Origin: Nymphaea colorata
Lineage: Eukaryota > Streptophyta > Magnoliopsida > Nymphaeales > Nymphaeaceae
DNA length: 64,000 nt
Direction: 5' to 3'
NCBI RefSeq assembly: GCF_008831285.2
Contig: NC_045140.1
Location: 17,110,370 to 17,174,369, forward strand
The translations under genes and the position numbers were made by a program. This document shows, one piece after another, positions 42,948-64,000 of the stretch (positions within the stretch are counted from its first letter, which is position 1; every line of letters starts with the position of its first letter). Below the pieces are notes generated by a model. It worked only from the letters and a program-made list of their open reading frames with translations. It was not told where the DNA came from and did not search any database.

Positions 42948-44086
42948 GATTGACACAGAATATGGCAAGTATTCATCAGTCCCTCCTCCGTAAAACCATT
43001 AACAGTATAAGAAGGACGAAGCAACCAAAACCGAAGCAAGAACACACCAAGAAATGCGAAGTGAAGCTTCTGTTTGGTGCGTCACAAGCTTTCTGCTTTC
43101 TATAATTAATTCTTGCCTGCAGTGGTAGGTGGATTTGTTCATTGTTTCTAGATGAACTCTTGTGAACTAAGTGAACAATATCATTTTTTTTTCATTTGAG
43201 GTAATATAACTTGTAGGTTAATTATCTTATGGGAAGCAACCATGTAAGAGTGACCCAGTTGCCTCAGAGAAAATGAAGAACCTGGAACATTGTTTCAAAC
43301 AACACAAGCCTGTTATAAATACATCAGGACCAATAAAGTGCACAAATAATTTTGCTTTTAGCAAAATCCCATACGATTTATCCCTTTGTCTCATGAAAAA
43401 GGAAAAACAACTTCAACTTATTCTTCGTCCAATTCACTTTATAGTCTGTCTTTTTATGACGTTACTGGAATAGATGTACTAAATCGTTTCTCCTCGATCA
43501 TATAAAAAATTTGAAAATTCTGCAGGCTCACATCGCAAATAAGTTGCCACCGTCGCCATGGTTGCGGACGATAGAGGTTTTGATCAACCAAGCAAAGCGG
43601 TATAAGCATGTGCGTGAGTGATCTTTCCAAATGGAGGCTTGCAATTGCATCTGGCGGTCGTTGAAACACTATAATTCCGAATTATACCAGACTTTATTGC
43701 TAAATCGCTGATGCGGATTCATGCTACAGAAGTTGCTTAATTTCTCCCTCGTTCTCTCATCCGTGGGCCGTTTTCAATGCTATCGTGAGTGTATAATTTC
43801 CTTTTGTTGGTGAAGGTAACAAGAATTTGACGAATCTAAAGCTAGCCAGTTCGAATTATTAGACCGTTTTGGAGGACCTCGAATTAATAAAGATCTAAAG
43901 ACATTGTTTTATAAAACCGGTTTACCCGCAAAATCCGACCTGCGCCATTCCACAGAAATTCCCAACACTGGGCAAAATTATGACATTTTTGTTGCTTCTG
44001 GCTATTTTACATGATTTTCCTTCTGCTGCAGATGCTGCCAACCACTACAGGATTTTCTTATTAGCAGGTGACTAGAGGAACCTAGA
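42948..44086. other. Intergenic between divergent ABCG26 and PPR genes
   Basis: About 1.1 kb separating the start codons of two divergently transcribed genes, so it should hold both promoters. I see no coding region, RNA gene or strong TATA box that I would assign. Confidence 0.5.
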
Positions 44087-45988
44087 ATGGCTCTGCCTCT
44101 GGCCACTCTCCAACTCCCCCCACCCGCAAAACTTCATGAAAATCATCCGTCCCATCAATTGCCACCAAGTTTGGTCTCCGTCACAGGCTCCCTCCCTCTC
44201 CAGAACTTCACCACACCGTTCCAACTCAAGCAGCTCCATGCCCAAATTGTGAAACAGAACGTCGACCCTTCCATTCTTTCGTTCTCTAAAGTTGCCCAAG
44301 TCTGCGGTTTGTCTCCGGACTTTGGCTACGGACGCCAGCTTCTACAGTTCTCGGACAGATTGGAGATAGTTATATGGAACTCCTGGATCAGGAAGCTCGC
44401 CGAGAGCGACTCACCGGCAGATGCGATCATTTTGTTTCGCAAATTGCGGTACGCCGATGTGCCTCCCGACACCCTCACTTGTTCGTTCGTGCTCAAGGCG
44501 TGTTCTCGTGTTCCGTCACTTGAAGACGGTATGATGGTCCATTCCTTGGCGGCGAAACAAGGGTGGGTCGCGGATGTGTTTTTGCAGAACACCATCATTC
44601 ATATGTATGCTTCTTGTGGTAGTCTAAGTTCTGCGTACCAATTGTTTGCTAAAACGTCCAAGAGAGATGTCGTGACTTGGAATATCATGATAACCCAATT
44701 TGCTAAACAGGGACAAGTTGATATTGCAAGAAAACTGTTTGATGAAATGCCAGAAAGAAGCACCAGGTCGTGGACGTCAATGATTACGGGTTATGTGCAG
44801 TGTGGGAGGCCCAATGAGGCGATCAGTGTCTTTCGGAGCATGGAAGAGGCAAATGTGAAACCGAATGAAGTTACTGTTGTTAGCGTTCTTGCAGCTTGTG
44901 CTGACGTTGGTGCGCTTGATCTTGGCCAGCGGATTCACGCCTATGCAAAGGAAAATCATTTTCGTCACAATGTTCGCGTCTGCAACACATTGATAGACAT
45001 GTACACAAAATGCGGGTGCATTGAAGAAGCAAGAATGGTTTTTGACGAAATTCCTGAAAGAACAGTTGTATCATGGTCTGCCATGATAATGGGACATGCC
45101 ATTCATGGTCAGAGTGAGGAAGCTCTTTCTCTCTTCTCTAAGATGCAAAAACGAGGAATTGATCCAAATGCTGTCACCTTTATTGGCCTATTACACGCTT
45201 GTAGCCATATGGGTATGGTTGCTGAGGGTTGCCGGTTTTTCAACAGCATGGTTAATGACTACCGCATAGTCCCTCAGATTGAGCATTATGGGTGTATGGT
45301 TGATCTTCTAAGCCGAGCAGGACTTCTGAAAGAAGCTTATGAGTTCATCAAGAACATGCCAATAGAACCAAGTGGTGCTGTGTGGGGAGCTCTCTTGGGT
45401 GGTTGTAGAGTTCACAAGAGTGTTGAGTTGGGAGAGGAAGTGATCAAGCACCTACTTGAGATAGAACCTCACAATGATGGATACTATGTCGTACTCTCAA
45501 ACATCTATGCTGAGGCAGGTAGATGGGGTGATGTAGCGAAGGTGAGAAGATTGATGAAAGATCGTGGCATTAAGAAAACACCAGGGTGTAGCTTTATCAC
45601 CATAGATGGAGTGACTCACGAGTTCGTTGCAGGTGATGGCTCACATCCTCATGCAAAAGAGGTGCAAGAAAAATGGCATGAACTTGCAGAACAATTGAAG
45701 TTGATGGGCTATGTTCCTGAAACCTCTGCGGTATTGCTAGACATAGCTGAGGAAGAGAAAGAACATGCTCTGTATCGCCACAGTGAGAAACTAGCAGTGG
45801 TCTTTGGACTCATGAAAACCTCGCCTGGAACACCTATCAGGATCATGAAGAACCTAAGGGTCTGTGCTGATTGCCATCTTGCGCTAAAACTGATCTCCAA
45901 GTTTTCTAATCGTGAGATCATTGTGCGTGATAGGAGTCGCTTCCATCGTTTTGTAGACGGCTCTTGTTCTTGCAAGGACTACTGGTGA
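44087..45988 (+). CDS. PLS-class DYW pentatricopeptide repeat protein
   Basis: Intronless, 633 residues, ATG at 44087 and stop TGA at 45986-45988. PPR proteins of this class bind organelle transcripts through tandem 35-residue repeats, and the DYW domain deaminates C to U. Repeats run from roughly residue 85 to 465 (for example VVTWNIMITQFAKQG and RSWTSMITGYVQCG), followed by E and E+ segments and a complete DYW domain. The deaminase motif HSE is at 565-567, the zinc-binding CADC at 593-596, and the protein ends in DYW at 631-633. The N-terminus is hydroxylated and weakly basic, which fits an organelle transit peptide, but mitochondrion versus plastid cannot be decided. The 3' end converges on OPT copy A with only 282 bases between stops. 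A damaged copy of its 3' part is at 63464-64000. The target site is unknown. Confidence 0.93.
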   Translation: MALPLATLQLPPPAKLHENHPSHQLPPSLVSVTGSLPLQNFTTPFQLKQLHAQIVKQNVDPSILSFSKVAQVCGLSPDFGYGRQLLQFSDRLEIVIWNSWIRKLAESDSPADAIILFRKLRYADVPPDTLTCSFVLKACSRVPSLEDGMMVHSLAAKQGWVADVFLQNTIIHMYASCGSLSSAYQLFAKTSKRDVVTWNIMITQFAKQGQVDIARKLFDEMPERSTRSWTSMITGYVQCGRPNEAISVFRSMEEANVKPNEVTVVSVLAACADVGALDLGQRIHAYAKENHFRHNVRVCNTLIDMYTKCGCIEEARMVFDEIPERTVVSWSAMIMGHAIHGQSEEALSLFSKMQKRGIDPNAVTFIGLLHACSHMGMVAEGCRFFNSMVNDYRIVPQIEHYGCMVDLLSRAGLLKEAYEFIKNMPIEPSGAVWGALLGGCRVHKSVELGEEVIKHLLEIEPHNDGYYVVLSNIYAEAGRWGDVAKVRRLMKDRGIKKTPGCSFITIDGVTHEFVAGDGSHPHAKEVQEKWHELAEQLKLMGYVPETSAVLLDIAEEEKEHALYRHSEKLAVVFGLMKTSPGTPIRIMKNLRVCADCHLALKLISKFSNREIIVRDRSRFHRFVDGSCSCKDYW

Positions 45989-46270
45989 CATCACTGATGT
46001 TTTTCGCTTCATAGGAGTCAATAACTCAAGAAAGCTGTTATTCAAACATAACAGTTTGTGAACGTGCTTGATTTATTCTTAACTAATCAAATATAAACAA
46101 TTAAGCAGTTTGTATGAAGGAAACAGCCACAATAATGAATCTGTCTATATTTTGCAGACATCACCAAGAATCATCCTTCATACACATGACTAACCATCGT
46201 AGAATAAGCAAACTCCTATACTAAAGGCCATAAGCAAATGAAACTACTTTATAGGACCAATAAACTGAGC

Positions 46271-47013
46271 TCAGAAGACAGGACACCCTTTCGTCACCAT
46301 TCCAGGTTCTGTGGGGCAACGTGCTAGAGCGCAGTGGTCGTCCAGCTCTGTACCCCACCACTGTATTCCAAAGATGGATCTATACTGCAGCGCAAAGTAG
46401 GTGAGAACGGCGGAGAAGGCAACACCTGCGTCGAGCCCGGCGGACAGAACATAATTGTGCCGTGCCCACCACTGCTTGTACTTTCTATACACCACGAAGT
46501 TAAATGCTATACCAACTGCTCCCCAGGCCAGGTAGTTGACTGCTCTCGCCGGTGGCATCATCCCAGTTGCACCAATCAAGATGGGCATGTTGATGAGGCT
46601 GATCCACTTTGCCTTTGGAAACAGGCGTGAGCACACCCAGACAGGGACAGGTGCGAGTAGACCCACTAGGAACCACCAGTTCTGCCCGGCATAGACTCCC
46701 AGCCTGCCAAACATGCGAAGTGGGCCGACCACACCCCAGATGATAGAGGCATTGTAGAACACATCGTCGCCCGGGCAAGTCCATGGGCTGGAAGGGTCGA
46801 GGAGTGCTGTGTTGCAGATGTTGGGAACTGTTGTGAGCAGCCACCATGCCGTGCCAAAGTAGACGGATGATGAAACCAGTGTGCCAACAAGCTGTGCAAT
46901 AAGATAAAGGCAAATAGTTTTACTTTTAATTTACGAAATCAAGCACACACATGCACGAACACATGGAAGGATCCAGCGAAGCTACTGTAGTTGTACCAAC
47001 AAGTTGACCACAC

Positions 47014-47053
<40 letters not shown>

Positions 47054-50000
47054 AACAACGAACATAGATCTTGGAGGGATCTTCATGTAGTGGCCAAGCT
47101 TGAAATCTGAGAGGAACATGAGGGCCTGGGACATGCTGATGTAGCCATAGGTTTTGAAGGCCACATTTGCAAGAGGCCTGCCTGGGTACAAGTAACCAAT
47201 TATCAGCTCTGTGATCACGTTCAACCCAGGTTGCTGCACAAGCAATGCAAGCTTCGTATCAGTGAAATGGAACAAGAAAGAAAAATACGAAGTAATCGAT
47301 AAATAAATTCCGCATAAATGGGTCGGAATATGTAAAAGAAATTACTGGTCCGAAGTGAGGTAACATCCAACCCAATGCCTAAGAATAAGGTTTCTTAACA
47401 GTGTATTTTTGAGCTCACCTGATTAGTGGTAGCTTGGATGATGCCAATAGGGAGGGTGAAGAAGAAGGCAATGACACAAGCAAGAAGGATGCCCCACCAC
47501 GGCAGCTGAAGCTCGCCCCCGAACCCCAAGCAAGCAAGGAAGGCAAGGCCAACCACGCAAATCAGGATGATGCTGAACCACCATTCGGGCACCGCCACAT
47601 AGTTCTTCTTCATCAGCCTAGTGTGGACGTCACCAACATGATCACTGAATGCCTGTTTGGTTTGCCGGTAGATCGATCTGCACACAGTAATGGAAGAACC
47701 ATGCTCAGGTTTGGTTCAGATATCTGACCAAATTCAAATCTGATTAATCAAAATCTGGTCTCCATTCAAACTCCACCCACACATGCACACGCAGAAGCAA
47801 ATTGCAAAGTGATGGTTCAGTACATAAGACTTACTTTCCATGGAAGAGAGCAACATGGGAGATGGTAGCCGCAAGAGTGGCGAAGCTGATGCCGTAAGTG
47901 AAGGCGAAGAAGATGCTCAGATGGATCTGGCTATAGCCGCTATAGCCGACGGGGTCGAATTCAAACGTCTTCTGATTAAGTATCCGGGAGATGTTATAGG
48001 GCTTGCCCCACTGATCGAAGACGTGGGAGGAGAAGATGGGGAAGCGCTTGGCATTGTAAGAGTTGGTCCAGTAGGTGATGGGGAGCATGACATAGACCAC
48101 CAAGAAGAAACCTGCCATTACATTGAGGACGGCGAAGCCGGGAGTGGCGAGAGGGCTGCCCAGAAACCCGGCAACCGTCGACCAGTCGAGGGCGATGGAG
48201 CCGACGCCGAGGCCGGAGAGGCCGGAACCGATCTGCTGGGCGGTGACGGAGTCCTTCCAGATCCAGCACACAAAGGAGAGGGCGGTGATTGAAGGGAACA
48301 GATAGTTGGGGACGATGTAGTAGCAGTAGCTGGCGACAAACACCATGAGGAAGAACTGCAGCCTCGTGGTGCCACGCTTTCGCCGCACCTCCTTCTCATG
48401 CAACGCTCTGTTACATGAAACAAGCGACTGGTAAGCATTCTTAAGAGTTGAAGAGCCGAAAATTAAAACGGAATGCCTTATATAGATGGCACCACTGTGA
48501 ACTTCAAGCAAGAACCAAAGACATTGTTCATATAAGCACAAATACAAGTACAAATATACGTAAAATATATAGATATGGAGAGAAGGTGAAAGAGAATATG
48601 AGTGGCAGTCTCAGTCTGACCTGAACAGAGAGACCTGGACGAGGTTGGCAGGCCACCACATGTAAGGGGAGTCCACGAGATACTTCCGGAACAAACCCGC
48701 CCATCCATATCCCATCATCTACAGCCGTCCGCCAAAATAGACAACATCAAGTATTATTATTTTAGAGAGAGATCAGTGAGGGTCCGGAGAATAGCTGAAT
48801 GAAGACTCAATTTTCAAAACCATGCAGGTTGCATTAATGATGAGTTTAAATTCAACATCGCTGTAAGGGAGGAAAAGTAATGAAAGCTTCCTGCTTTGCT
48901 CCGCCTCTTCCATTACGTCGCTCGTCATCTTCTTCTTCTCCTTTTTTTACTTTCCCATGCATCGAGCAAGAGAGATTTTCCAAACTCTACTAGGAAAGCG
49001 TTTCATATATTTTCTCGACGGAGGCCGGGAAAAGCGCAAGTGGGATAAGAAAAATCTTCTTGGTTGACTTGGAATTCGGCAACAAATTGGTCGATTTTTC
49101 TGTAATTTAGTTTATTAGAAGCGTGGTGTGGTGTGTGTCCAAATTTGAATGCTTACAAATTTCTATGAACTATTACACCAACTGATTGTTTGAAAAAACA
49201 AATATATTATGCGGCCATATTGAGCTACCGTCGGTCTTTTTATTGCTTATTGACTTGGAACTCGGCAACAAATTGGTTCATTTTTTTTGTAATTTAGTTT
49301 ATCAGGGTTGTGTGCAAATTTGAATTCTTATGAGCTTCAAGACTTGGGGGGACTCAATGTTTCTATGAACTAGCATACCAACCGATTTATGATAAAACAA
49401 ATATAATGTTAGAAGCCATATCAAGCTACCATGGCCATCTAAGCCAAAAAAAAAAAAAAAAAAAACTTGAAAACCGATGTTTAGTAGCATGAGCCGGAAT
49501 GCAGGGACACTAATGCATAAATAAGCAATTTGTATGGTTCTGTGTGGGCAATTGCCCACACTTCTACGACACTGCCAGGTTTCAATATGTATGGAAGCTA
49601 CCATTTGTATGTCATTCAAATCCGTTTGCAAAAGAACAGTGAAAGCGGAAGACACCTGCGTTGTCTGTGACAGCAAGAATGCAGCCATGGGGTGGAGCTG
49701 CCTGTGGTAGAAGGCCTTAACTATGGTGATGATGTTCACAGCATACACAGAGTTGGAGCCAGAGTTTGCAAAAATCGTGATCAGCACATGTTCCTTGATA
49801 TTGAAGGGCCCCGGATTCAGCGAAAACTCCCACTCGGTTCCCGGAATTCGGACCACCTTGGCCGGAAGTGTGGCAGCCATGAGCTTCCCCAGGGGCAGCG
49901 CAATGATCTGGGCGGAGATGGAGGACACGCTTAGTTGGTTCTGCCTGTAGCCGAAGAACTGGTTCAAGAAGGCCAGCAGGGCGCATGAGAACAGGCCCAG

Positions 50001-51597
50001 AGTCCATGTCCGGAACGTGAGGACTGGCAGAGTCGGATCATCGGTAGCCGGCACCGTCAGCCGGACTTGCTCAATCGGCGAATTTTCCAATTCATCTGCA
50101 TAAATGTAGCAATAGTGTCGCAATCAAACAAGATTTTCATTGACTGGCGAAGATTTGTTGTGGACACAAAGCCCAATAATACTCAGAACATTCGCCAGAT
50201 CAGGCGCCCAAAACTCGGATCAAACTTTGGTGGATCTAAAATCTTGATTTTTAGTTGTGGATAAGATTGGTTATATCTAGTAACTCAGTTTTATGATCTT
50301 CAATATCCAATACCAAATGACACCAGAGATGAGAGATTCGACTCATAAAAATCCAAAAAGATGGAAACAGAGAGGAATGATTCAACAGCAATTTGAAATA
50401 GATATAGATCCAAAAGGAGCCATACCGGAGAAGTGGGCGACTCCGAACAATAACTCAGACTTCTGAACAAAACCATCAATCCAGAGAGGTATTAAAAATC
50501 ATTCGAACAAGAAGATGGTTGGCAGGAGAGACACAGTACTCAAATCTCAACAGGGTTTCGATTGATCACAACAATCTTCCTTGATGCCATGCCAAATTTA
50601 ATAATTCCTCATCTCCAAGAAACAATACGAAAGGAAAAGGATCACTTCTCAAAGATCATTCATGATGTCAATATGAGTAATCCCCGTAGCAATTTTAAGA
50701 AATCTGTGCCTGTTTCCTTGATTAGGAGCGAGAGGTTGGGAATCAAATTTTTTGTCTTCTTTCAATAATAAAATATTCATTTGCACAAGGGTAGGAAGTT
50801 GCTTTTTATGGTAGAAAAGATGGCAACTGGAGATCAGAGAGACTTCAAAGTAGCAAACTCACCAACCATAATATATCATCTTTTTCTTTTTCTTTCTTTT
50901 CCCATGTTATCACAGGAGGAGAATTCTATGAACACATGCGCATCTCTCTCTCCCGTATACCATAAGCAAGCCACCGCAAAAATGAAAAAGGAAAATTGTG
51001 GCACTATTTTCAAATGCCAAGATGATCCAAGCAGCAAAGCCAAAAGAATGTCATAAAAAAACACATAATATCTGAGAGGAGACAAAGCGAGCATGAATCT
51101 CCAGCAACTCAATTGCTCACGGGCAACTCCAAAGCACGTAAATCGAGAGGGAAATCAGGAGTTTTGGTATCTGCAATGGCGTCTGCGCTTCATGACAGGG
51201 CCTACACCCTGCGAAACAACTGATCATGGCCTTTTCTGGTTGGAGAAGCATTGGAAGGCATTGTTGGTGAGCATGACGAAGTTGGTTTGAAAGAAATTGA
51301 ACAACTGAACGGGACATGCACATCGGCTTTCGGTGACTTACGACACTTTCCGGGCGAAAAAGATGAAGCGATGGAAGAAATCGAACGGGGGAAAAGAGCT
51401 CACGTGAATCAAAATTTTTCTTCAAGACTACCCCGCAAACATCGACAAGGGAAAAATGGCAGAGAAGGAAGATTAGAACAAAGGGAAAAGGAAGAAGAAA
51501 AAAACAGAAACCGACCTATCTCCTCCGCTTGCTTAAGATTCTCGGGTAGGCGATCGCCATTCTTGTATGAAGAGTCTGCAACGCCGGAGTCACTCAT
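46271..51597 (-). CDS. Oligopeptide transporter (OPT family), copy A
   Basis: Seven exons: 51597-51516, 50095-49656, 48718-48621, 48407-47835, 47677-47419, 47233-47051, 46891-46271, all with GT-AG borders, giving 751 residues. The start is the ATG at 51597 ([16 protein letters not shown]); no upstream ATG lies in frame. OPT proteins are proton-coupled plasma-membrane importers of small peptides or metal chelates. Both OPT signatures are intact: NPG at residues 121-123 within [12 protein letters not shown], and KIPPR at 535-539. The long multi-span membrane domain ends in the family tail [15 protein letters not shown]. The leader [21 protein letters not shown] suggests the Arabidopsis OPT1/OPT5 side of the family more than the iron-related OPT3, but the substrate is not predictable from this. 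Near-identical copy B lies inverted at 57857-63182; I counted about 14 residue differences. Confidence 0.93.
47019..47049. repeat. (AG)n microsatellite at OPT-A intron 6 donor
   Basis: On the sense strand the intron begins directly GTCTCTCTCTC, so the CT run starts at the splice donor itself. In copy B the matching run is short and interrupted (62392-62418). Confidence 0.9.
49064..49440. repeat. Direct repeat of about 186 bp in OPT-A intron 2
   Basis: Two imperfect head-to-tail copies starting TTGACTTGGAATTCGGCAAC (49064) and TTGACTTGGAACTCGGCAAC (49250), each including TGTAATTTAGTTTAT and CTATGAACTA words. The same pair is present in arm 2, so the repeat predates the inverted duplication. 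Confidence 0.8.
50564..50806. repeat. OPT intron-1 segment, in-place copy of arm 1
   Basis: About 243 bp of OPT-A intron 1 beginning GATCACAACAATCTTCCTTG. It has a second copy at 51661-51908 in the same orientation and the expected inverted partner at 58641-58895. This copy lacks about a dozen bases (near TATTAAATATCTTG) present in the other two. Confidence 0.88.
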
Positions 51598-51660
51598 CTC
51601 ATCAGATTCAAGGTCCCCCGGCAAACTGCTGTGCGCGCTCTCTATCTGTCTCTCTATCAA

Positions 51661-51908
51661 GATCACAATAATCTTCCTTGATGCCAATCCAAATTTAATA
51701 ATTTCTCATCTCCAAGAAACAATACGAAAGGAAAATGATCACTTCTCAAAGATCATTCATGGTGTCAATATGAGTAATCCCCGTAGCAATTTTAAGAAAT
51801 CTGTGCCTGTTTCCTTGATTAGGAGCGAGAGGTTGGTGATCAAATTTTTTGTCTGATTTCAAATATTCATTTGCACAACGGCAAGATATTTAATAGGAAG
51901 TCGCTTTC
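51661..51908. repeat. Extra copy of OPT intron-1 segment at arm-1 edge
   Basis: Lies upstream of OPT-A exon 1, where arm 2 has unrelated sequence. It starts GATCACAATAATCTTCCTTG and ends near AGGAAGTCGC. It shares the TATTAAATATCTTGC stretch with the arm-2 intron copy and not with the arm-1 intron copy. It replaces the DNA immediately upstream of the OPT-A leader and so could affect that copy's promoter. Confidence 0.88.
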
Positions 51909-52319
51909 TATATTTTGACCGTCTCTAAAATATTGCGTTTTGAATCTCTCAAGATTCTCTAGGCTGGATAAGATTCAGGCAGCAAATTTTCCATTCTCAA
52001 AAAAAGCAAGGCCGTTTTTCCGTATGATTCCAGAGTTGAGAGGATTGGAGGATCATTTCTGAGGTTGATAGTCTTTCTTTATAGACTTTGTCATTATTTG
52101 AGTATGTATAGACTTTGTCTTTATTTGAGTATGTACGTCATTTGGTCAGACTATGATCCTAAGACAAACTTTTTTACTCTAACAGGGCCTGAAATAAACA
52201 AATTTTTTTATATTTATTAAACTAATTTTTTTTAAGATTTACACATCAATTTTTAAAGTTTTTAAAATTTGAGAGGGGTGGGGGGAATGGCCCTACCGGC
52301 CCACCCTTCCCTCCGCCCC

Positions 52320-52690
52320 TCACAACAAGTGAAGCAAGCTCGAACTCGCTCGTTTAAACTCGACTTATTTATAAATGAGTCAAACTCGAGTTCAAGATTA
52401 TGTTCAAAATGTTAGACGAGTCGATTTTGTGCTGTAAGAACTCGACTCAACTCGACTACATAATAAATGTTGAATTATATTGACAAAATAGTTAAACGAG
52501 TTAACAAGTACAGACATGCTTAACATAAATGAGTTAAATGAGTTGAGTTCGAGTTCGACTTTGAATTGTAGAGTCGATTTCGAGCTTGTTTTTTTGAGTG
52601 CAACTCGAGATCAAGTTGAGTTCGAGCTCAAATTTTCTGAGTCGAGCTGGGTCCAACTCGAACTCCTACTTGTCCCATGTGCAGCCCTAT
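52320..52690. repeat. CTCGAG-rich dispersed repeat, copy 3
   Basis: Dense in AAACTCGAGTT, GAGTTCGAGTTCG and AACTCGAACTC words, as at 17740 and 38502. It ends near CCCATGTGCAGCCC. Non-coding. Confidence 0.58.
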
Positions 52691-53146
52691 TGAAGACCAG
52701 AGACAAGGAAGGTCTGATCTTAATTACTGTATGTAAATAGAACATCAGCAAATATGGCATGACTAACATGGTACAGCTAACTTTAACCTTTATTTTTAAG
52801 ATAAAATCCTTTCTTTTTCTTGCCTGTTGTCCGAAACTTTCTTAAACAAATCACCTTTCTCAATCTTCTCGATAGGGGTTGTGACCTTCATTAAAGACTG
52901 GCAAGTGAGTGAAGGACTCAACCTTTTTATTAACCGATAAATATAAAATGTCAGTTGCAAATTTTTATCGCCGTATTATCCTCCACGATTTACTGCTGCC
53001 CTCAGGTCTTATGTGCAAGGTCTTTCAAGTAAGCAATGAGCAGTGAATGCTTTTTATAAGAACAAAAATAGAACATCAGCAAAAATGGTGATGGTGTCAA
53101 TATCACCACCTGTATAAATATCTGTCAGTCATAATCATAGATGGGA

Positions 53147-53255
<109 letters not shown>

Positions 53256-53696
53256 CAAGTATGATCATATGATGGAAGTCGTAGTGGTTCTTGATGTATA
53301 AATGAAGCTTTTATCTGACAGGTGCTTGATCATGCGTATGCTGCCATGAATTTAAAGAGATTATGATGTGATCATGTTCAGGTTGAAGATGATGCCAACA
53401 TATGAAGCCAGTACTAATGTAGCTGTAATTGAAGATCATGGATGACCCGCATATATCAAGACGTAAAGAAAAGGAATGGTAGCCAATGACAGTTTCCAAG
53501 TTTTTTGGAAGCTTCCTTAGAAACAGTTGTGTTGTCTGTTTCCCTACAAAAATGAAAGAACTTGAAATGTGGAATCTAAGGCCCATCGTGGCCTTACTAC
53601 ACGTTAATTTCTTTATTCTCTTCTCTTTCATTTATTTCTTAATGTTTTGTGGTACACCATATGTAGATCATATTATCAATATGCATAACAAGTAAT

Positions 53697-53985
53697 TACG
53701 AGATAGTGTATATGAGATAACAAAAGATGTATGAGCCAATAAGATGACATATGAACGTATGAGATAACGTTAAACATGAGTATGAGATAACATTGAGGTA
53801 ATTTATGAGACAACAAATGTATGAGATAACACTAAACATAAGTATGAATAATGTTTATGAATTAATAAAATATTTGTGAGATAATAATATAACATATAAA
53901 TATATGAGATAACTTTAACAATAAGTATTAGATCATGTTTATGAGATAATAAAATATTTATAAAATAATGAGATAATACTATGAG
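53697..53985. repeat. Degenerate TATGAGATAAC minisatellite
   Basis: The word ATGAGATAA or a close variant (GTGAGATAA, ATGAGACAA) recurs around ten times at irregular 15-40 base spacing, often preceded by A/T-rich linkers with AACA or TTTAACA. It is non-coding and looks like an old expanded minisatellite. Confidence 0.6.
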
Positions 53986-54097
53986 ACAGACACAAAAAGA
54001 AAGTGTTCTTTCTACTGCTTAGAGTGGTATATTAAAGAGTTATATTTTAGCTCTTATTAAAAATATTGAAATTATAGTTTCACCTAGAATTAAAAAT

Positions 54098-54163
54098 TTC
54101 TGGCTCTGTCCCTACTCATACTCAAAGGACTTCTGGCTCTGTCCCTACGCATACTCAAAGGAC
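54098..54163. repeat. 33-bp tandem duplication
   Basis: Two copies (54098-54130 and 54131-54163) of a unit starting TTCTGGCTCTGTCCCTAC, differing by one base. Confidence 0.92.
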
Positions 54164-54483
54164 TTACTTAGAATTTTCGAACATGGTGGCCTTGATTACT
54201 GATAGTTGGCCTTGATGCACTGATGGTTGATTCCCAACCGGTTCTTCCTGTTGAAGATGGTGACATTCACATCACAATTGGTTGTCAATTGGTTTTCACA
54301 GGTTTTGAAAATGGAGAGAGTGGAGCCTGTGAAAGAGAAACAGTGGGGCTTGGGCAAAGGAAAGTCTGAGCTTCTCGTGCCATTGGAATTGTAGATAACC
54401 AAATTGAACATTCAGATTAATTTATTTAGGTTGCAAATTTGTTTAAACATCCAGCTTTCACATTATGGGATAGAGCGGGCCGC

Positions 54484-54486
<3 letters not shown>

Positions 54487-54537
<51 letters not shown>
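54487..54537. repeat. (AT)n microsatellite
   Basis: AT repeat with one interruption (ATGTAT). A second run lies at 54814-54851. Both sit close to the axis of the inverted duplication. Confidence 0.93.
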
Positions 54538-54810
54538 GACACTTAGGTTTGGCATAAAAACCAACACCGTTATTTTTTTTGCTAAAAAAATATTTTAAAT
54601 ATATTTATAAAAATTATTTTCATATAAAATATGCTTTGATTCAAGTTGTTTTCATGAAAAATGTAGATTTTTTAATTATTAAAATGTTGATGTTATGAAG
54701 GCCATTTAATTTTTTTTATTATAAAAAGCCTATTAAAATCTAACAAATGACCAACTTAATATATATTTTCATCAACATATTCTTAAGATCATATCAATAA
54801 AGTAAGCTTC

Positions 54811-54813
<3 letters not shown>

Positions 54814-54851
<38 letters not shown>
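54814..54851. repeat. (AT)n microsatellite
   Basis: Uninterrupted AT repeat about 90 bp from the axis of symmetry of the inverted duplication. Confidence 0.93.
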
Positions 54852-54854
<3 letters not shown>

Positions 54855-57800
54855 CACAATTACAAGGACTGGTTTTATCCTAACCTAAGCATGAATTTGA
54901 CCAGATTATATAAACAAATCGAGATGTCCATTAAAAAAATGAGTGAATGGCAGGATTGTGTGAAATGTCTAAGTTTAAGTGTTCTAACCTTCTCAAGTCA
55001 ACCTCCGTTTCATGCAGATTCACGCCCATATTATTAATCAAAAAGTGCTCCACTAGAAAAATCTGTCCTCTGGATTCCAAAAAGGAGAAGAAAGGGTGTG
55101 GCCAACTTCTTTACACCGCTCCCTGTTAAAAAATGGGTATGAATGTTTTTCCCAGTGGGATTTGTATTCTGAGTTTCGAATTCAGATTGCTCGCAACTTC
55201 GGAGTTTCGACTGTTGAATTCACATCATGTGGCTTTCATTCCGGGGGGTGCAAGGATACACTGTTGAAATTTCTAAAGGAAAGATACTACAAGTTGGGGC
55301 AGATATTTAATAAGGGAGTAGTGTGTACAGGTTGAAGGTTTTCCTCTCTAGTCCCACTGGCGCCAAACAGTTGACTGGAAGCCTTGAGAAAACGACGCCC
55401 ACTTGGCCCGGATGGGCCTCTAGGTGTCAGGCTTGAAGACGATTGATGCGCTCGTCTGTCTTTCTCTCCATCTCTCCAGCGTAGAATGAGTAGCAACCTG
55501 ATAAGCCTTACTAGAATTGTAGTTAATCTAAGTGTGAAACACTAGTTCACCATCACTATCATTGTTATCAAGCCTTACTCTCATTCCATTTATGTGGTTG
55601 TTCATATCTAAAATTAAAACAGTTAAACTGAAGGTGCCCAATAAATGATTAAAATGGCAAGAAACATAGCCCATTCCAGTTACCACTTCCTTGGGGAGGA
55701 TTCCTTCGATATTCAACTTTTGGTCAATGCATTTGTCAAAAATTATGCCATATACATATTAGAGTTCTTTCTTTTTTCAATTATAAATTCACATGCATCA
55801 AGAGGACAGACAAGTTTAATTTTTTTCAGGGGCAAGTCAAACGGTCCAACAAATTTATTCAGATAGAGCCAAACTAAACCACAATCTAAAAAATATATTA
55901 TGCAATTAAAAAATTTTAATTTTGTTAATGTAATTTTTTTTTTTTTACTTAGCTAAGGTAGGGCCATGGCCTAGGCGGCCCCCTCCCACTGCCCCTGAGT
56001 CCAGGAATGAGCTACATAGCAAACTCGGGGTTCTGCTGCCGTGCAAGTAACAAAGTCTATCTGCTTAGAGTGCAATTTCTTTTGATTGCCTACATCATCT
56101 TAGAAATCAAGACTCAAGAGCGAGAATATTCATGGAGAGGATCCTTGCCACGATCACCAGGATCCTTATCAAAGGTAGACTGCACTGCGTTGAGACATCA
56201 AAGGTCAAGCCCGAGCCCACCACAGCCGTTCAATGGGTCACTTCAGTTTTGGTTACAACTGGTCAGTCTCATGCAGCAGGCAAAGTCTGACCACGCTTCA
56301 GAGTTCAGACCCAAAAGGATGAGTAAGAATGGACGGCTGCAAGAGTCAAACGCAAACAACGGCGAAAAAAAATTATGAAAACGGCAGTACATGACGATCA
56401 GATGTTCATACATGAGTCTTTTAACTTGCTTTGACTTGATCGCTGTTCTTGTAAATTATCTTGTTCGAAAACCTCTGGAGCGAACGAAGCAACACTTGCG
56501 TTCCTCGTCGAGGATTTGAAGCCCTCTTGTGCTTCCCGCGTTCGATCTACGTTCCAAAACCAGCAGCGAAAAAGTAGACTGATTATAAGAGAATTCTAAT
56601 AAAACAACAATGAATTTGTAGCTATCCTCCGATTGAACTTACAAGAGAATACATCATGTTTTACTTGCATATCCAGATTTAGAATATGGAAAAATAACCT
56701 TTTTTATTGGAAAGATTTTAAAGAAGTTAGGTAACTCTAAAGTATAATAACATACAAATAAATATATATCTAACTTTAAACAATTGTCAACAATAAAAAT
56801 TCCAGAATCATAATTTCTGCTCAAAATAGAATGGAATCAAATTTCCAGGTTGTTTCCCTTGCCTAAACTTCCAAGGCTTCAAATCGGGAAGCTTTTGTTT
56901 CACCCTTTATCATCTATGAGATTCGCGTTTGGTTATTGCACCATTCGAGCTGTCCCCGAGTATCAGATATATGCATCCAGTTCAAATTCGAATCTATTAT
57001 CCCATAAATAATGGAGTATGAATCCTTTATGCAGCAGCTTCAACATCAATATTTGAATTCGAATCCGATATCAAACAGAAAACTGATCCTTTCGATTACA
57101 TATAAAATCAGATCTTATCCCAGTAGAAATCTGGATCCAATTGCAGGAATCTGATTAAGAGAGACCAGAGAAATGGCTCAGCTGTGAGTTTACTGGTACA
57201 GCTAATACATTTATGTAAACATAGACTTGTAACTATTATCCAGCTCGCCTAATTAAATCATTTTGAAAAATGACCTTGTTTTGTTCAGGAATGAAAAGTT
57301 TGCAGCATGAATCTTGAGATTCAAAGCGCAATATTTTGGAGACGGTGAGTCAAAACATCGAGGAGGAAGTCCGGCGAGGAGAACCCGGTGAGTTTCAAAT
57401 GACAAGAATACCCTCCCCAGATTCCGTTCCAGAGCCCATGTTTTCAGCCGAGGTGGAGACATTAAAAGGTAATTTTACGACTAGGTGAGGAGGCACTTTA
57501 TTAGAAAAAGAAGCCTTCTTGTGAGTACCAGGCTGGAATCCGGAGGGCGCCGGAAGGTAGCAGAAAGGACGGTGGGAAAAGGAAAAAAAAATCACAATCA
57601 CAGTCGCATTCTTGGAGAGTCAATGGTGGGACCCACGGACGTCAATCCGCCGGAGCGTGTAGGAGTGGAAGAAACATAAAGAGAGGGAGGGAGGCTTGAG
57701 AGAGAAGAGCTCGAAGGCAAGACGCACAGAGTCGATGTGTAAGAAGCGAGAAGCCATGGCTTTTCTCTTGTGATCTTAGCATTTTCCCTGTCTTTTAGAA

Positions 57801-57856
57801 AGACAGAGAGAGAGAGCGCGCACAGCAGTTTGCTGGGGGATCTTGAATCTGATGAG

Positions 57857-60800
57857 ATGAGTGACTCAGGCGTTACAGACTCTTCATACAAGAATGGCGA
57901 ACGCCTCCCCGAGAATTTTAAGCAAGCGGAGGAGATAGGTCGGTTTCTGTTTTTTCTTCTTACTTTTCCCCTTGTTCTTTCTCTGCCATTTTTCCTTTCT
58001 CCATGTTTGCGGGATAGTCTTTAAGAAAAATTTTGATTCACGTGAGCTCTTTTCCCCTGTTCGATTTCTTCCATCGCTTCATCTTTTTTCGCCCGGAAAG
58101 TGTCACAAGTCACCGAAAGCCGATGTGCATGTCCCGTTCAGTTGTTCAATTTCTTTCAAACCCACTTCGTCATGCTCACCAACAAAGCCTTCCAATGCTT
58201 CTCCAACCAGAAAAGGCCATGATCAGTTGTTTCGCAGGGTGTAGTCCCTGTCATGGAGCGCAGACACCATTGCAGATACCAAAACTCCTAATTTCTTTCT
58301 CGGTTTATGAGCTTTGAAGTTGCCCGTGAGCAATTGAGTTGCTGGAGATTCATGCCCGCTTTGTCTCCTGTTAGATATTATGTGTTTTTTATAATATTCT
58401 TTTGGCTTTGCTGCTTGGATTATCTTGGCATTTGAAAATAGTGCCATGATTTTCCTCTTTTATTTTTGCGGTGGCTTGCTTATGGCATACGGGAAAGAGA
58501 GATGCGCATGTGTTCATTGAATTCCCCTCCTGTGAGAACATGGGAAAAGAAACAAAAAGAAAAAGATGATATATTTTGGTTGATGAGTGATGGCTACTTT
58601 GAAGTCACTCTGATCTCCAGTCGCCATCTTTTCTACCATACAAAGCAACTTCCTATTAAATATCTTGCCCTTGTGCAAATGAATATTTTATTATTGAAAG
58701 AAGACAAAAAATTTGATTCCCAACCACTCGCTCCTAATCAAGGAAACAGGCACAGATTTCTTAAAAATGCTACGGGGATTACTCATATTGACATCATGAA
58801 TGATCTTTGGGAAGTGATCCTTTTCCTTTCGTATTGTTTCTTGGAGATGAGGAATTTTTAAATTTGGCATGGCATCAAGGAAGATTGTTGTGATCAATCG
58901 AAACCCTGTTGAGATTGAGTACTGTGTCTCTCCTGCCCACCAGCCTCTTGTTCGAATGATTTTTAATACCTCTCTGGATTGATGGTTTTGTTCAGACGTC
59001 TGAGTTATTGTTCGGAGTCGGCCACTTCTCCGGTATGGCTCCTTTTGGATCTCTATCTGTTTCAAATTGCTGTTGAATCATTCCCCTCCGTTTTCATCTT
59101 TTTGGATTTTTATGAGTCGATCTAGTCTCTTTATCTCTCATGTCATTTGGTATTGGATATTGTAGATCATAAAACTGAGTGAGTAGATATAACCTATCTT
59201 ATCCACAACTAAAAATCAAGATTTTAGATCCAGCAAAGCTTGATCCGAGTTTTGGGCGCCTGATCTGGCGAATGTTCCGAGTATTATTTGGCTTTGTGTC
59301 CACAACAAATCTTCGCCAGTCAATGAAAATCTTGTTTGATTGCGACACTATTGCTACATTTATGCAGATGAATTGGAAAATTCGCCGATTGAGCAAGTCC
59401 GGCTGACGGTGCCGGCTACCGATGATCCGACGCTGCCAGTCCTCACGTTCCGGACATGGACCCTGGGCCTGTTCTCATGCGCCCTGCTGGCCTTCTTGAA
59501 CCAGTTCTTCGGCTACAGGCAGAACCAACTAAGCGTGTCCTCCATCTCCGCCCAGATCATTGCGCTGCCCCTGGGGAAGCTCATGGCGGCTACACTTCCG
59601 GTCAAGGTGGTCCGAATTCCGGGAACCAAGTGGGAGTTTTCATTGAATCCGGGGCCCTTCAATATCAAGGAACATGTACTGATCACGATTTTTGCAAACT
59701 CTGGCTCCAACTCCGTGTATGCTGTCAACATCATCACCATAGTTAAGGCCTTCTACCATAGGCAGCTCCACCCCATGGCTGCATTCTTGCTGTCACAGAC
59801 AACCCAGGTGAGTCTTCAGCTTTCCCTGTACTTTTGCAAACGGATTTGAATGACATACAAATGATAGCTTCCATATAGAAACCTGGCAGTGGCAGAGAAG
59901 TGTGGGCAATTGCCCACACAGAACCATACAAATTGCTTATTTATACAATAATTTCCCTGCATTCTGGCTCCTGCTGGTATGGCTTCTAATATTATATTTG
60001 TTTTATCATACAATCAGTTGGTATAGAAACATCAAGTCCCCCAAGCCTCAAACCTAATAAGAATTCAAATTTGTACACAATTCTAATAAACTAAATAACA
60101 AAAATATGGACCAATCTGTTGCCGCTCGAAGTCAACAAGCAACGAAACGGCCGACGGTAGCTCAATATGGCCGCATAATATGATATTTGTTTTTTAAAAC
60201 AATCAGTTGGTGTGATAGTTCATAGAAATTTGTAAGCATTCAAATTTACACACACCAGACCACACTTCCAATAAACTAAATTACAAAAAATGGACCAATT
60301 TGTTGCCGAATTCTAAGTCAACCACGAAGATTTTTCTTACCCCACTTGCGCTTTCTTGGCATCCATCGAGAAAATATATGAAAGGCAAGAAACGCTTTCT
60401 TAGTGGAGTTTGGAAAATCTTTCTCTTGCTCCATGCATGGGAAAGAAAAAAAGGAGAAGAAGACGACTAGATGAGCGACGTAATGGGAAAAAGGCAGACG
60501 CACATGACAAGCGGCGGTGGCCCGCAATTAATGGAAGACGCAGAGCAAAGCAGGAAGCTTTCATTACTTTTCCTCCCTTCGACAGCGATGTTGAATTTAA
60601 CTCATCATTAATGCAACATGCGTGGTTTTGAAAATTGAGTCTTCATGCTGCTATTCTCCGGACCCTTACTGATCTCTCTCTAAAATAATAATACTTGATG
60701 TTGTCTATTTTGGCGGACGGCTGTAGATGATGGGATATGGATGGGCGGGTCTGTTCCGGAAGTATCTCGTGGACTCCCCCTACATGTGGTGGCCTTCCAA

Positions 60801-63182
60801 CCTCGTCCAGGTCTCTCTGTTCAGGTCAGACTGAGACTGCCACTCATATTCTCTCTCTCTCCTTCTCTCTATATCGATATATTTTATGTATATTTGTATT
60901 TGTATTTTTCGGCTCTTCAACTCTTAAGAATGCTTACCAGTCGCTTGTTTCATGTAACAGAGCGTTGCATGAGAAGGAGGTGCGGCGAAAGCGTGGCACC
61001 ACGAGGCTGCAGTTCTTCCTCATGGTGTTTGTCGCCAGCTACTGCTACTACATCGTCCCCAACTATCTGTTCCCTTCAATCACCGCCCTCTCCTTTGTGT
61101 GCTGGATCTGGAAGGATTCCGTCACCGCCCAGCAGATCGGTTCCGGCCTCTCCGGCCTCGGCCTCGGCTCCATCGGCCTCGACTGGTCGACGGTTGCCGG
61201 GTTTCTGGGCAGCCCGCTCGCCACTCCCGGCTTCGCCGTCCTCAATGTAATGGCCGGTTTCTTCTTGGTGGTCTATGTCATGCTCCCCATCACCTACTGG
61301 ACCAACTCTTATAATGCCAAGCGCTTCCCCATCTTCTCCTCCCACGTCTTCGATCAGTGGGGCAAGCCCTACAACATCTCCCGGATACTTAATCAAAAGA
61401 CGTTTGAATTCGACCCCGTCGGCTATAGTGGCTATAGTCAGGTCCATCTGAGCATCTTCTTCGCCTTCACTTACGGCATCAGCTTCGCCACTCTTGCGGC
61501 TACCATCTCCCATGTTGCTCTCTTCCATGGAAAGTAAGTCTGATGTACTGAACCATCACTATGCAATTTGCTTCTGCGCGCGCATGTGTGGATGGAGTTT
61601 GATTGGAAACCACATTTTGGTTAATCAGATTTGAATTTGGTCAGATATCTGAACCAAATCTGAGCATGGTTCTACCATTACTGTGTGCAGATCGATCTAC
61701 CGGCAAACCAAACAGGCATTCAGTGATCGTGTTGGCGACGTCCACACCAGGCTGATGAAGAAGAACTATGTGGCGGTGCCCGAATGGTGGTTCAGCATCA
61801 TCCTGATTTTCGTGGTTGGCCTTGCCTTCCTTGCTTGCTTGGGGTTCGGGGGCCAGCTTCAGCTGCCGTGGTGGGGCATCCTTCTTGCTTGTGCCATTGC
61901 CTTCTTCTTCACGCTCCCTATTGGCATCATCCAAGCTACCACTAATCAGGTGAGCTCAAAAATACACTGTTAAGAAACCTTAGGCATTGGGTTCGATGTT
62001 ACCTCACCTTTGACCAGACTAGAACTACAGTTGATCAATTGGACTAACTGGTCAGTTCTCACTTTAAAATCCATGCTCGATCAACCAATCGGACCAGTAA
62101 TTTCTTTTACATATTCCGACCCATTTGTGCGGAATTTATTTATCGATTACTTGGTATTTTTCTTTCTTGTTCCATTTCACTTATACGAAGCTTGCATTGC
62201 TTGTGCAGCAACCTGGGTTGAACGTGATCACAGAGCTGATCATTGGTTACTTGTACCCAGGCAGGCCTCTTGCAAATGTGGCCTTCAAAACCTATGGCTA
62301 CATCAGCATGTCCCAGGCCCTCATGTTCCTCTCAGATTTCAAGCTTGGCCACTACATGAAGATCCCTCCAAGATCTATGTTCGTTGTTCAGGTCGCTCTC
62401 TCTGTCTCTCTCTCTATTTGAATGTGTTTGTCTGTGTGTGTGTGGTCAACTTGTTGATACAACTACAGTAACTCCGCTGGATCCTTCCATGTGTTCGTGC
62501 ATGTGTGTGCTTGATTTCGTGAATTAGAACTAAAACTATTGGCCTTTATCTTATTGCACAGCTTGTTGGCACACTGGTTTCATCGTCCGTCTACTTTGGC
62601 ACGGCATGGTGGCTGCTCACAACAGTTCCCAACATCTGCAACACAGCACTCCTCGACCCCTCCAGCCCATGGACTTGCCCGGGCGACGATGTGTTCTACA
62701 ATGCCTCTATCATCTGGGGTGTGGTCGGCCCACTTCGCATGTTTGGCAGGCTGGGAGTCTATGCCGGGCAGAACTGGTGGTTCCTAGTGGGTCTACTCGC
62801 ACCTGTCCCTGTCTGGGTGTGCTCACGCCTGTTTCCAAAGGCAAAGTGGATCAGCCTCATCAACATGCCCATCTTGATTGGTGCAACTGGGATGATGCCA
62901 CCGGCGAGAGCAGTCAACTACCTGGCCTGGGGAGCAGTTGGTATAGCATTTAACTTCGTGGTGTATAGGAAGTACAAGCAGTGGTGGGCACGGCACAATT
63001 ATGTTCTGTCCGCCGGGCTCGACGCAGGTGTTGCCTTCTCCGCCGTTCTCACCTACTTTGCGCTGCAGTATAGATCCATCTTTGGGATACAGTGGTGGGG
63101 TACAGAGTTGGATGACCACTGCGCTCTAGCACGTTGCCCCACTGAGCCTGGAATAGTGACAAAAGGGTGTCCTGTCTTCTGA
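57857..63182 (+). CDS. Oligopeptide transporter (OPT family), copy B
   Basis: Seven exons: 57857-57938, 59368-59807, 60727-60824, 60961-61533, 61691-61949, 62209-62391, 62562-63182. Exon lengths equal those of copy A and the product is again 751 residues. The ATG at 57857 ([16 protein letters not shown]) is the first in frame; upstream the frame opens only from a GTG. NPG at 121-123 and KIPPR at 535-539 are intact, so this should be a working proton-coupled peptide or metal-chelate importer like copy A. Differences include Glu to Lys in the PGTKWEF stretch, Glu to Gln in [10 protein letters not shown], His to Arg in SDRVGD and Ala to Ser in MWWPSNL. Transcription runs away from copy A, so the two start codons face each other across 6.3 kb. 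The 5' flank differs from copy A beyond about 90 bases upstream of the ATG, so the two may differ in expression. Confidence 0.93.
59945..60321. repeat. Direct repeat in OPT-B intron 2
   Basis: Arm-2 counterpart of the repeat at 49064-49440. The AAGTCAA ends are at 60129 and 60315, 186 bases apart, the same spacing as in arm 1. Confidence 0.78.
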
Positions 63183-63463
63183 GCTTACGTTATTGGTCCT
63201 ATAAAGTAGTTTGATTTGCTTACGGCCTTTAGTATAGGAGTTTGCTGATTCTACAACGGTTAGTCATGTGTATGAAGGATGATTCTTGGTGATGTCTGCA
63301 AAATATAGAAAGATTCGTTATTGTGGCTGTTTCCTTCATACAAACTGCTCAATTGTTCATATTTGATTAGTTAAGAATAAATCAAGCACGTTCACAAACT
63401 GTTATGCATGAATAACAGCTTTCTTGAGTCATGACTCCTGTGAAGCGAAAAGCATCAGTGATG

Positions 63464-64000
63464 TCACCAGTAGTCCTTGCAAGAACAAGATCCATCGACA
63501 AAACGATGGAAGCGGCTCCTACCACGCACAATGATCTTGCGATTAGAAAACTTGGAGATCAGTTTTAGCGCAAGATGGCAATCAGCACAGACTCTTTGGT
63601 TCTTCATGATCCTGACAGGTGTTCCAGGCGAGGTTCCATGAGTCCAAAGACCACTGCTAGTTTCTGATTGTGGCGATACAGAGCATGTTCTTTATCTTCC
63701 TCAGCTATGTCTAGCAATACCGTAGAGGTTTCAGGAACATAGCCCATGAACTTCAATTGTTCTGCAAGTTCATGCCATTTCTCTTGCACCTCTTTTGCAC
63801 GAGGATGTGAGCCATCACCTGCAACGAACTCATGAGTCACTCCATCTATGGTGATGAAGATACACCCTGGTGTTTTCTTAATGCCACGATCTTTCACCAA
63901 TCTTCTCACCTTCGCTAGGTCATCCCATCTACCTGCCTCAGCATAGATGTTTGAGAGCACGACATAGTATCCATCATTGTGAGGTTCTATCTCAAGTAGG
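63464..64000 (-). pseudogene. Frameshifted 3' end of DYW-PPR gene, second copy (partial)
   Basis: Minus-strand copy of the last 538 bases of the PPR gene at 44087-45988, cut by the window end. Two lesions are visible. The deaminase motif HSE of the intact gene reads HNQ here (AGTGAG changed to AATCAG), which removes the catalytic glutamate. About 30 bases later, near 63639, ATGAAAACC of the intact copy reads ATGGAACC, a one-base loss. The frame then ends at a stop near 63604 and lacks the CADC zinc site and the terminal DYW. The lost C-terminus is still recognisable in the next frame down to the old stop at 63464. Upstream of the shift the E/E+ region is open. The 5' part lies outside the window, so the PPR array cannot be judged. 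A sequencing error could mimic the deletion but not the HNQ change. Confidence 0.85.

Follow-up and report, generated by a model that had tools for sequence, protein, structure and literature searches.

The 64,000-nucleotide stretch of DNA analysed here (the window, C3:17110370-17174369) carries two nearly identical OPT genes, OPT-A and OPT-B, which stand head to head on the two arms of a large inverted repeat. We consider it very probable (roughly 0.85) that the locus arose by a local inverted segmental duplication, after which both OPT copies were retained, the copy of a neighbouring PPR gene decayed and the promoters diverged. The structural event itself is an ordinary inverted segmental duplication, of a known kind. 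What is new lies in the details, namely the replacement of the OPT-A promoter, a broken third copy of the gene (D) and a 395-bp block shared with the upstream region of a distant paralogue, OPT-C; of these, the replaced promoter and the block, which has the look of a conversion tract, merit a second look.

In a self-BLAST of the window, the inverted repeat appears as five main pieces, collinear and 85-96% identical (E 0 or <1e-140), which span 45451-51656 on the left and 57796-64000 on the right; four of the five are 93-96% identical and the fifth, an intron, is 85% identical. BLAST of the window together with 53 kb of flank places the outer arm end at 44268, paired with 65383, which is about 1.2 kb outside the start given by an earlier note on this DNA and 1.4 kb past the window edge. 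Inward, a weaker homology pairs 51918-52029 with 57346-57256 (112 columns, 67% identity, 21 gaps, E 8e-11), for which a reversed-B control gave a best match of only E 0.08. The innermost paired ends are 52029 and 57256, with a replaced stretch breaking the inner homology, and an additional pairing links 51661-51911 with 58895-58638. The left arm accordingly runs from 44268 to 52029 (minus strand), strong in its outer part and weak at 51918-52029, and the right arm from 57256 to 64000 and on to 65383 (plus strand), 1383 bases past the window, with a loop of about 5.2 kb between them. The two arms are collinear reverse complements with neutral-like divergence and separate flanks. The inverted duplication claimed by the earlier note is thus real and larger than it had stated, the proposed self-comparison of window plus flanks having confirmed it and placed both outer ends, and the gene models together with self-BLAST bear out the collinear arms and the divergent, near-identical OPT pair. 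The nearly constant coordinate sum of 109451-109454, also claimed for the paired features, holds at the gene ends (109454 for exon 1 and 109453 for exon 7) and fails at the exons between (109463, 109445, 109368, 109368 and 109442 for exons 2-6); since the exon sums vary, the introns differ between the arms by indels that reach about 80 bp.

The G+C content of the window is 39.4%, which fits the 38.59% that the available part of PMC9601493 gives for Nymphaea colorata. Other repeats occur in the vicinity. Short direct duplications are found at 3688-4129 and 7512-8144 of the window (221 bp with 99.5% identity, in adjacent copies, and two further pairs, about 90 and about 200 bp long, at 94% and 91.5%), and a tandem array of more than 20 kb (C3:17181.7-17205.2 kb, window-equivalent 71.3-94.8 kb) starts about 5-6 kb past the right arm. 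The array has repeat shifts near 0.6, 1.55 and 1.8 kb, and its copies are about 75-98% alike among the matches listed; its part at 71.3-89.7 kb has 33% G+C, and in a stretch inside it all stop-to-stop frames fall short of 150 aa.

Both OPT genes are intact, and each is composed of seven exons with GT-AG introns, encoding 751 codons plus a stop, with no internal stop in either frame. In the splice model, OPT-A (46271-51597, minus strand) has its exons at 51597-51516, 50095-49656, 48718-48621, 48407-47835, 47677-47419, 47233-47051 and 46891-46271, and OPT-B (57857-63182, plus strand) at 57857-57938, 59368-59807, 60727-60824, 60961-61533, 61691-61949, 62209-62391 and 62562-63182. The OPT domain (PF03169) scored above cut-off in all nine exon frames tested, which were exons 2, 4, 5, 6 and 7 of OPT-A and exons 2, 4, 6 and 7 of OPT-B (E 2.5e-16 to 8.1e-42); exons 1 and 3 of both genes and exon 5 of OPT-B lay outside this test. 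Both translations contain what we take to be the NPG motif (FSLNPGPFN) and the KIPPR motif, presumably marking them as members of the PT (peptide transporter) clade of the OPT family. The predicted product of both genes is a proton-coupled transporter of peptides or metal chelates, almost the same in the two; a phmmer search for solved relatives of OPT-A gave no PDB chain at E 0.001.

Across the genome searched (407,766,735 bases in 783 contigs), a Pfam search gave 70 OPT matches, and visual grouping puts these at about 15 loci. One distant paralogue is OPT-C (window-equivalent 103682-107137; dS 1.20 from OPT-A), and another is E, on C8 (dS 1.36 from OPT-A; 0.93 between C and E). The third copy, D, lies about 160 kb from OPT-A (C3:16993183-16996032) and is a broken fragment that reaches from within exon 2 to within exon 7 and has an internal deletion. 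A second OPT cluster was seen on C9, where two neighbouring loci (C9:21745975-21751494 and C9:21754182-21757231) are both on the minus strand.

The direction of copying is suggested by the PPR gene, which was carried along with OPT. PPR-A (44087-45988, plus strand) is an intact single-exon PLS-DYW PPR gene of 633 codons plus a stop, whose open frame was checked and whose Pfam matches are PPR_2, E_motif and DYW_deaminase. The PPR repeats, E motif and DYW deaminase domain that define the PLS-DYW class are present in this left-arm gene only, the right-arm copy being broken. PPR-B (minus strand; 63464-64000 in the window and 63464-65383 as a whole), delimited by tblastn of PPR-A and self-match rows, has its 5' end cut off, shows three frame changes among the tblastn pieces and has in-frame stops within a stretch that holds an internal tandem duplication (self-match rows 64805-65049). 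The two PPR 3' ends reported earlier are both there, but an intact gene stands behind the left one only, the right one belonging to a frameshifted pseudogene. Because PPR-B is truncated and frameshifted, the left arm is likely the source and the right arm the derived copy. PPR-A is convergent with OPT-A, and 282 bp separate their stop codons (45988-46271), so that their 3' UTRs may overlap.

That the promoters of the two OPT copies can differ, as the earlier note had proposed, is borne out: immediately upstream, OPT-A has a sequence other than that of OPT-B. In the alignment, a proximal upstream region of 450 bp at OPT-B (57346-57796, plus strand) is missing from OPT-A, and its place is taken by about 250 bp (51661-51911, minus strand) that resemble intron 1 of OPT-A (50564-50791), to which they are homologous, and intron 1 of OPT-B (58638-58895). 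In a padded alignment, this upstream piece differs from the two introns by 10.6% and 13.0%, whereas the introns differ from each other by 2.0%; over the best 202 ungapped bases, its identity to the OPT-A intron is 95.1%. As the piece is further from the introns than these are from each other, the promoter change may be older than the inverted duplication. TATTAAA occurs 298 and 103 bases upstream of the OPT-A start codon, both times inside the intron-like piece, and a search for TATA-like strings in the 402 bases upstream of OPT-B found none; this difference between the two upstream regions is suggestive only.

In the proposed course of events, the copied segment would have comprised OPT-A, the sequence proximally upstream of it and the greater part of the convergent PPR gene, and the copy would have come to lie in reverse a few kb upstream of OPT-A. 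The copying would have cut the PPR copy at its 5' end, and this copy would then have decayed, while OPT-A and OPT-B may both have been kept for dosage or for partly different expression, a suggestion that draws on their constraint and on the promoter difference. At the promoter of the original copy, rewiring would have taken two steps, a small tandem duplication that covered exon 1 with part of intron 1 and then a deletion, which we infer to be the simplest route to the change at OPT-A. Such a deletion would have taken away the old promoter and first exon copy of OPT-A, and the derived copy, OPT-B, would have kept the older promoter.

The loop bears on a further exchange, this time with OPT-C. 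Its part at 53328-56252 is homologous, in four pieces with insertions between them, to sequence upstream of OPT-C (window-equivalent 102957-100999). Outside the 395-bp block, these pieces have a JC divergence of 0.125-0.21, which is far below the A-C coding dS of 1.2 and above the A-B value. This suggests that the surroundings of A and C exchanged upstream sequence at a time well after the two genes had separated but ahead of the A/B duplication. The block itself (55251-55645) is nearly identical to its OPT-C counterpart: 5 of its 395 sites differ (98.7% identity), against 47 of 255 just outside (82% identity in the flanks). Fisher's test of this difference gives p 1.6e-15 for a block that was chosen by scanning, and when the scan itself is allowed for by permutation, p is 0.0005, the minimum possible with 2000 shuffles. 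In the loop piece at 53328-53648, the low-divergence run is not significant (43 difference events in 321 columns, p 0.41 and 0.16).

A reading in which the duplication shared with the OPT-C upstream region belongs to the A/B event was rejected: the pooled JC value for 55011-55645 of 0.069 splits into 0.013 inside the block and 0.21 outside it, which makes the upstream duplication seem older than A/B, and the block more recent. A coding origin of the block was likewise rejected, a 92-codon frame at 55057-55335 having no Pfam match at E 1 and being split over frames in the C copy; among the three loop frames tested in Pfam, one other than this had a single match, below cut-off (E 0.15). A special RNA fold was also rejected (55270-55650, z 0.12; 54 of 100 shuffles at least as stable). 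Elsewhere in the loop there is a dispersed repeat of about 180 bp (55818-56008, plus strand), SINE-like in size only, for which at least 39 other places in the genome were found at 77-84% (40 of 992 candidates scored). The loop also contains an AT-rich stretch of 1362 bp (53649-55010; 72% A+T, with (AT)n runs), parts of which match many places in the genome; the corresponding stretch upstream of OPT-C is only about 0.12 kb long.

The block is probably a recent gene-conversion tract, as judged from the pattern of differences along the alignment. That it is instead a constrained regulatory element shared by the OPT cluster is possible, if on the unlikely side. The sharp step in differences at the block edges, with its permutation p, would fit constraint as well, and the block is placed upstream of all three genes alike, 3.7-4.0 kb from OPT-A, 2.2-2.6 kb from OPT-B and about 1.4-1.8 kb from OPT-C. 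When 55005-56300 was searched against the genome, the block part matched only two places, its own and one near OPT-C (40 of 992 candidates scored). However, it would be unusual for almost 400 non-coding bases to be so strongly constrained, and conversion requires no function; moreover, the block lacks a conserved reading frame and an unusual RNA fold, and no counterpart was found in 9-kb regions around D and E. We regard as distinctly improbable the more specific proposal that the block is a constrained distal element of the three OPT genes, serving the divergent A and B together and, in its second copy, C; if true, the inverted duplication would have given rise to a bidirectional gene pair centred on an enhancer, in which the core promoters came to differ and one was rebuilt from intron sequence. 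The shared upstream block could allow gene conversion to be told from regulatory constraint by one sister-species comparison.

There are 50 differences between OPT-A and OPT-B in 2256 coding bases and 14 in 751 residues. Their synonymous divergence, a check proposed in the earlier note, comes to a dS of 0.071, with a dN of 0.0082 and a dN/dS of 0.12, and their aligned introns show 178 differences in 2888 sites (JC 0.064, or 6.4%). The neutral expectation for one copy since the duplication is about 61 replacements on that copy alone (1720 N sites x 0.0354), and the relative-rate test is even, with 12 A-derived versus 16 B-derived changes when OPT-C is the outgroup and 14 versus 14 with E. As the change is mostly silent and dN/dS is 0.12, both copies were kept under selection: both are constrained (purifying selection) since the duplication. 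For Nymphaea colorata, the available part of PMC7015852 reports a KS peak of paralogues close to 0.9, which the dS of 0.93 between C and E fits, and dates a peak to 107 Ma; if that species is the source, a dS of 0.071 would correspond to roughly 8 million years.

This age would be too low if recent gene conversion between the whole arms kept A and B alike and the duplication were much older than dS suggests, which we consider unlikely. The longest identical stretch between the arms (308 bp, 46792-46485) is significant in a permutation test over 44650-51656 (p 0.0005), but it sits in exon 7, which is constrained; in the introns alone, the longest identical run has p 0.29 and the best low-divergence segment p 0.023, and the evidence for conversion between the arms is weak. 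The distances among A, B and D also fit a simple order: over 2826 sites aligned in all three they are 0.040 for A-B, 0.065 for A-D and 0.061 for B-D, and of the sites polarised by C, 15 group A with B, 7 A with D and 7 B with D. D therefore probably branched off first and lies outside A and B; being a pseudogene, it may evolve faster, which would inflate its distance.

Inverted-repeat gene loci that silence in trans are known from chalcone synthase, PAI and Lgc1, and a long inverted duplication of a plant gene is what the present locus shares with them. In contrast to those loci, the genes here are arranged head to head around a long loop, both are intact and under selection, and their orientation gives no reason to expect a through-transcript. 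A role of the inverted repeat as a natural hairpin or antisense silencer of the OPT genes, like the chalcone-synthase or PAI repeats, would have in its favour the two long arms in inverted orientation and the convergent PPR-A, from which read-through antisense across the short gap between the stop codons is conceivable. It is nevertheless very unlikely because both OPT genes point outward from the loop, so that no transcript made from either gene is expected to run through both arms; the purifying selection on both copies also stands against it, as does an Rfam scan of 44000-64000, which gave no match at gathering thresholds. The hairpin-capable structure that had been raised earlier is therefore not upheld as a functional hairpin. 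It is extremely improbable that the repeat is an assembly artefact in which two haplotypes or contigs were joined head to head: arms that are 85-96% alike by piece are conceivable between haplotypes of a very heterozygous plant, but the 117,401-base region assembled from adjacent stretches contains no N, the loop and outer flanks are mutually unlike, divergence is 6.4% in introns and 7.1% at silent sites, lesions occur in PPR-B only and the third, broken copy lies about 160 kb away.

Local inverted segmental duplication with retention of both OPT genes, the reading we prefer, makes the locus a natural test, and one that can be dated, of how duplicates are retained: almost the same protein is encoded twice in one neighbourhood, with different proximal upstream sequence and a decayed PPR passenger. 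In the partly available literature on inverted or tandem duplication of OPT genes, on OPT in water lily and on inverted duplicates and promoter divergence, we recognised no description of this locus; the available part of a study of water lily under salt stress mentions oligopeptide transporters twice (PMC10058412). According to the available text of PMC3188535, the OPT families of poplar, grape, Arabidopsis and rice expand by tandem duplication, the cluster VvOPT1-VvOPT2-VvOPT8 being named, and similar expression is shared by none of the duplicated poplar and grape pairs. Family growth by local duplication is common to those clusters and to the present locus, whereas here the copy is inverted, dS is 0.071 and the sequence itself reveals a promoter difference; the available text of that paper does not use the word 'orientation'. 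For the rice ZIFL transporters, local tracts of high similarity between paralogues, promoters included, are explained by gene conversion in the available part of PMC3041735. The likeness to our locus lies in such local tracts of high similarity between paralogues; what sets our case apart from rice is that the paralogues A and C split very long ago (dS 1.2) and are inverted relative to each other, and that the nearly identical sequence is a block upstream of the genes.
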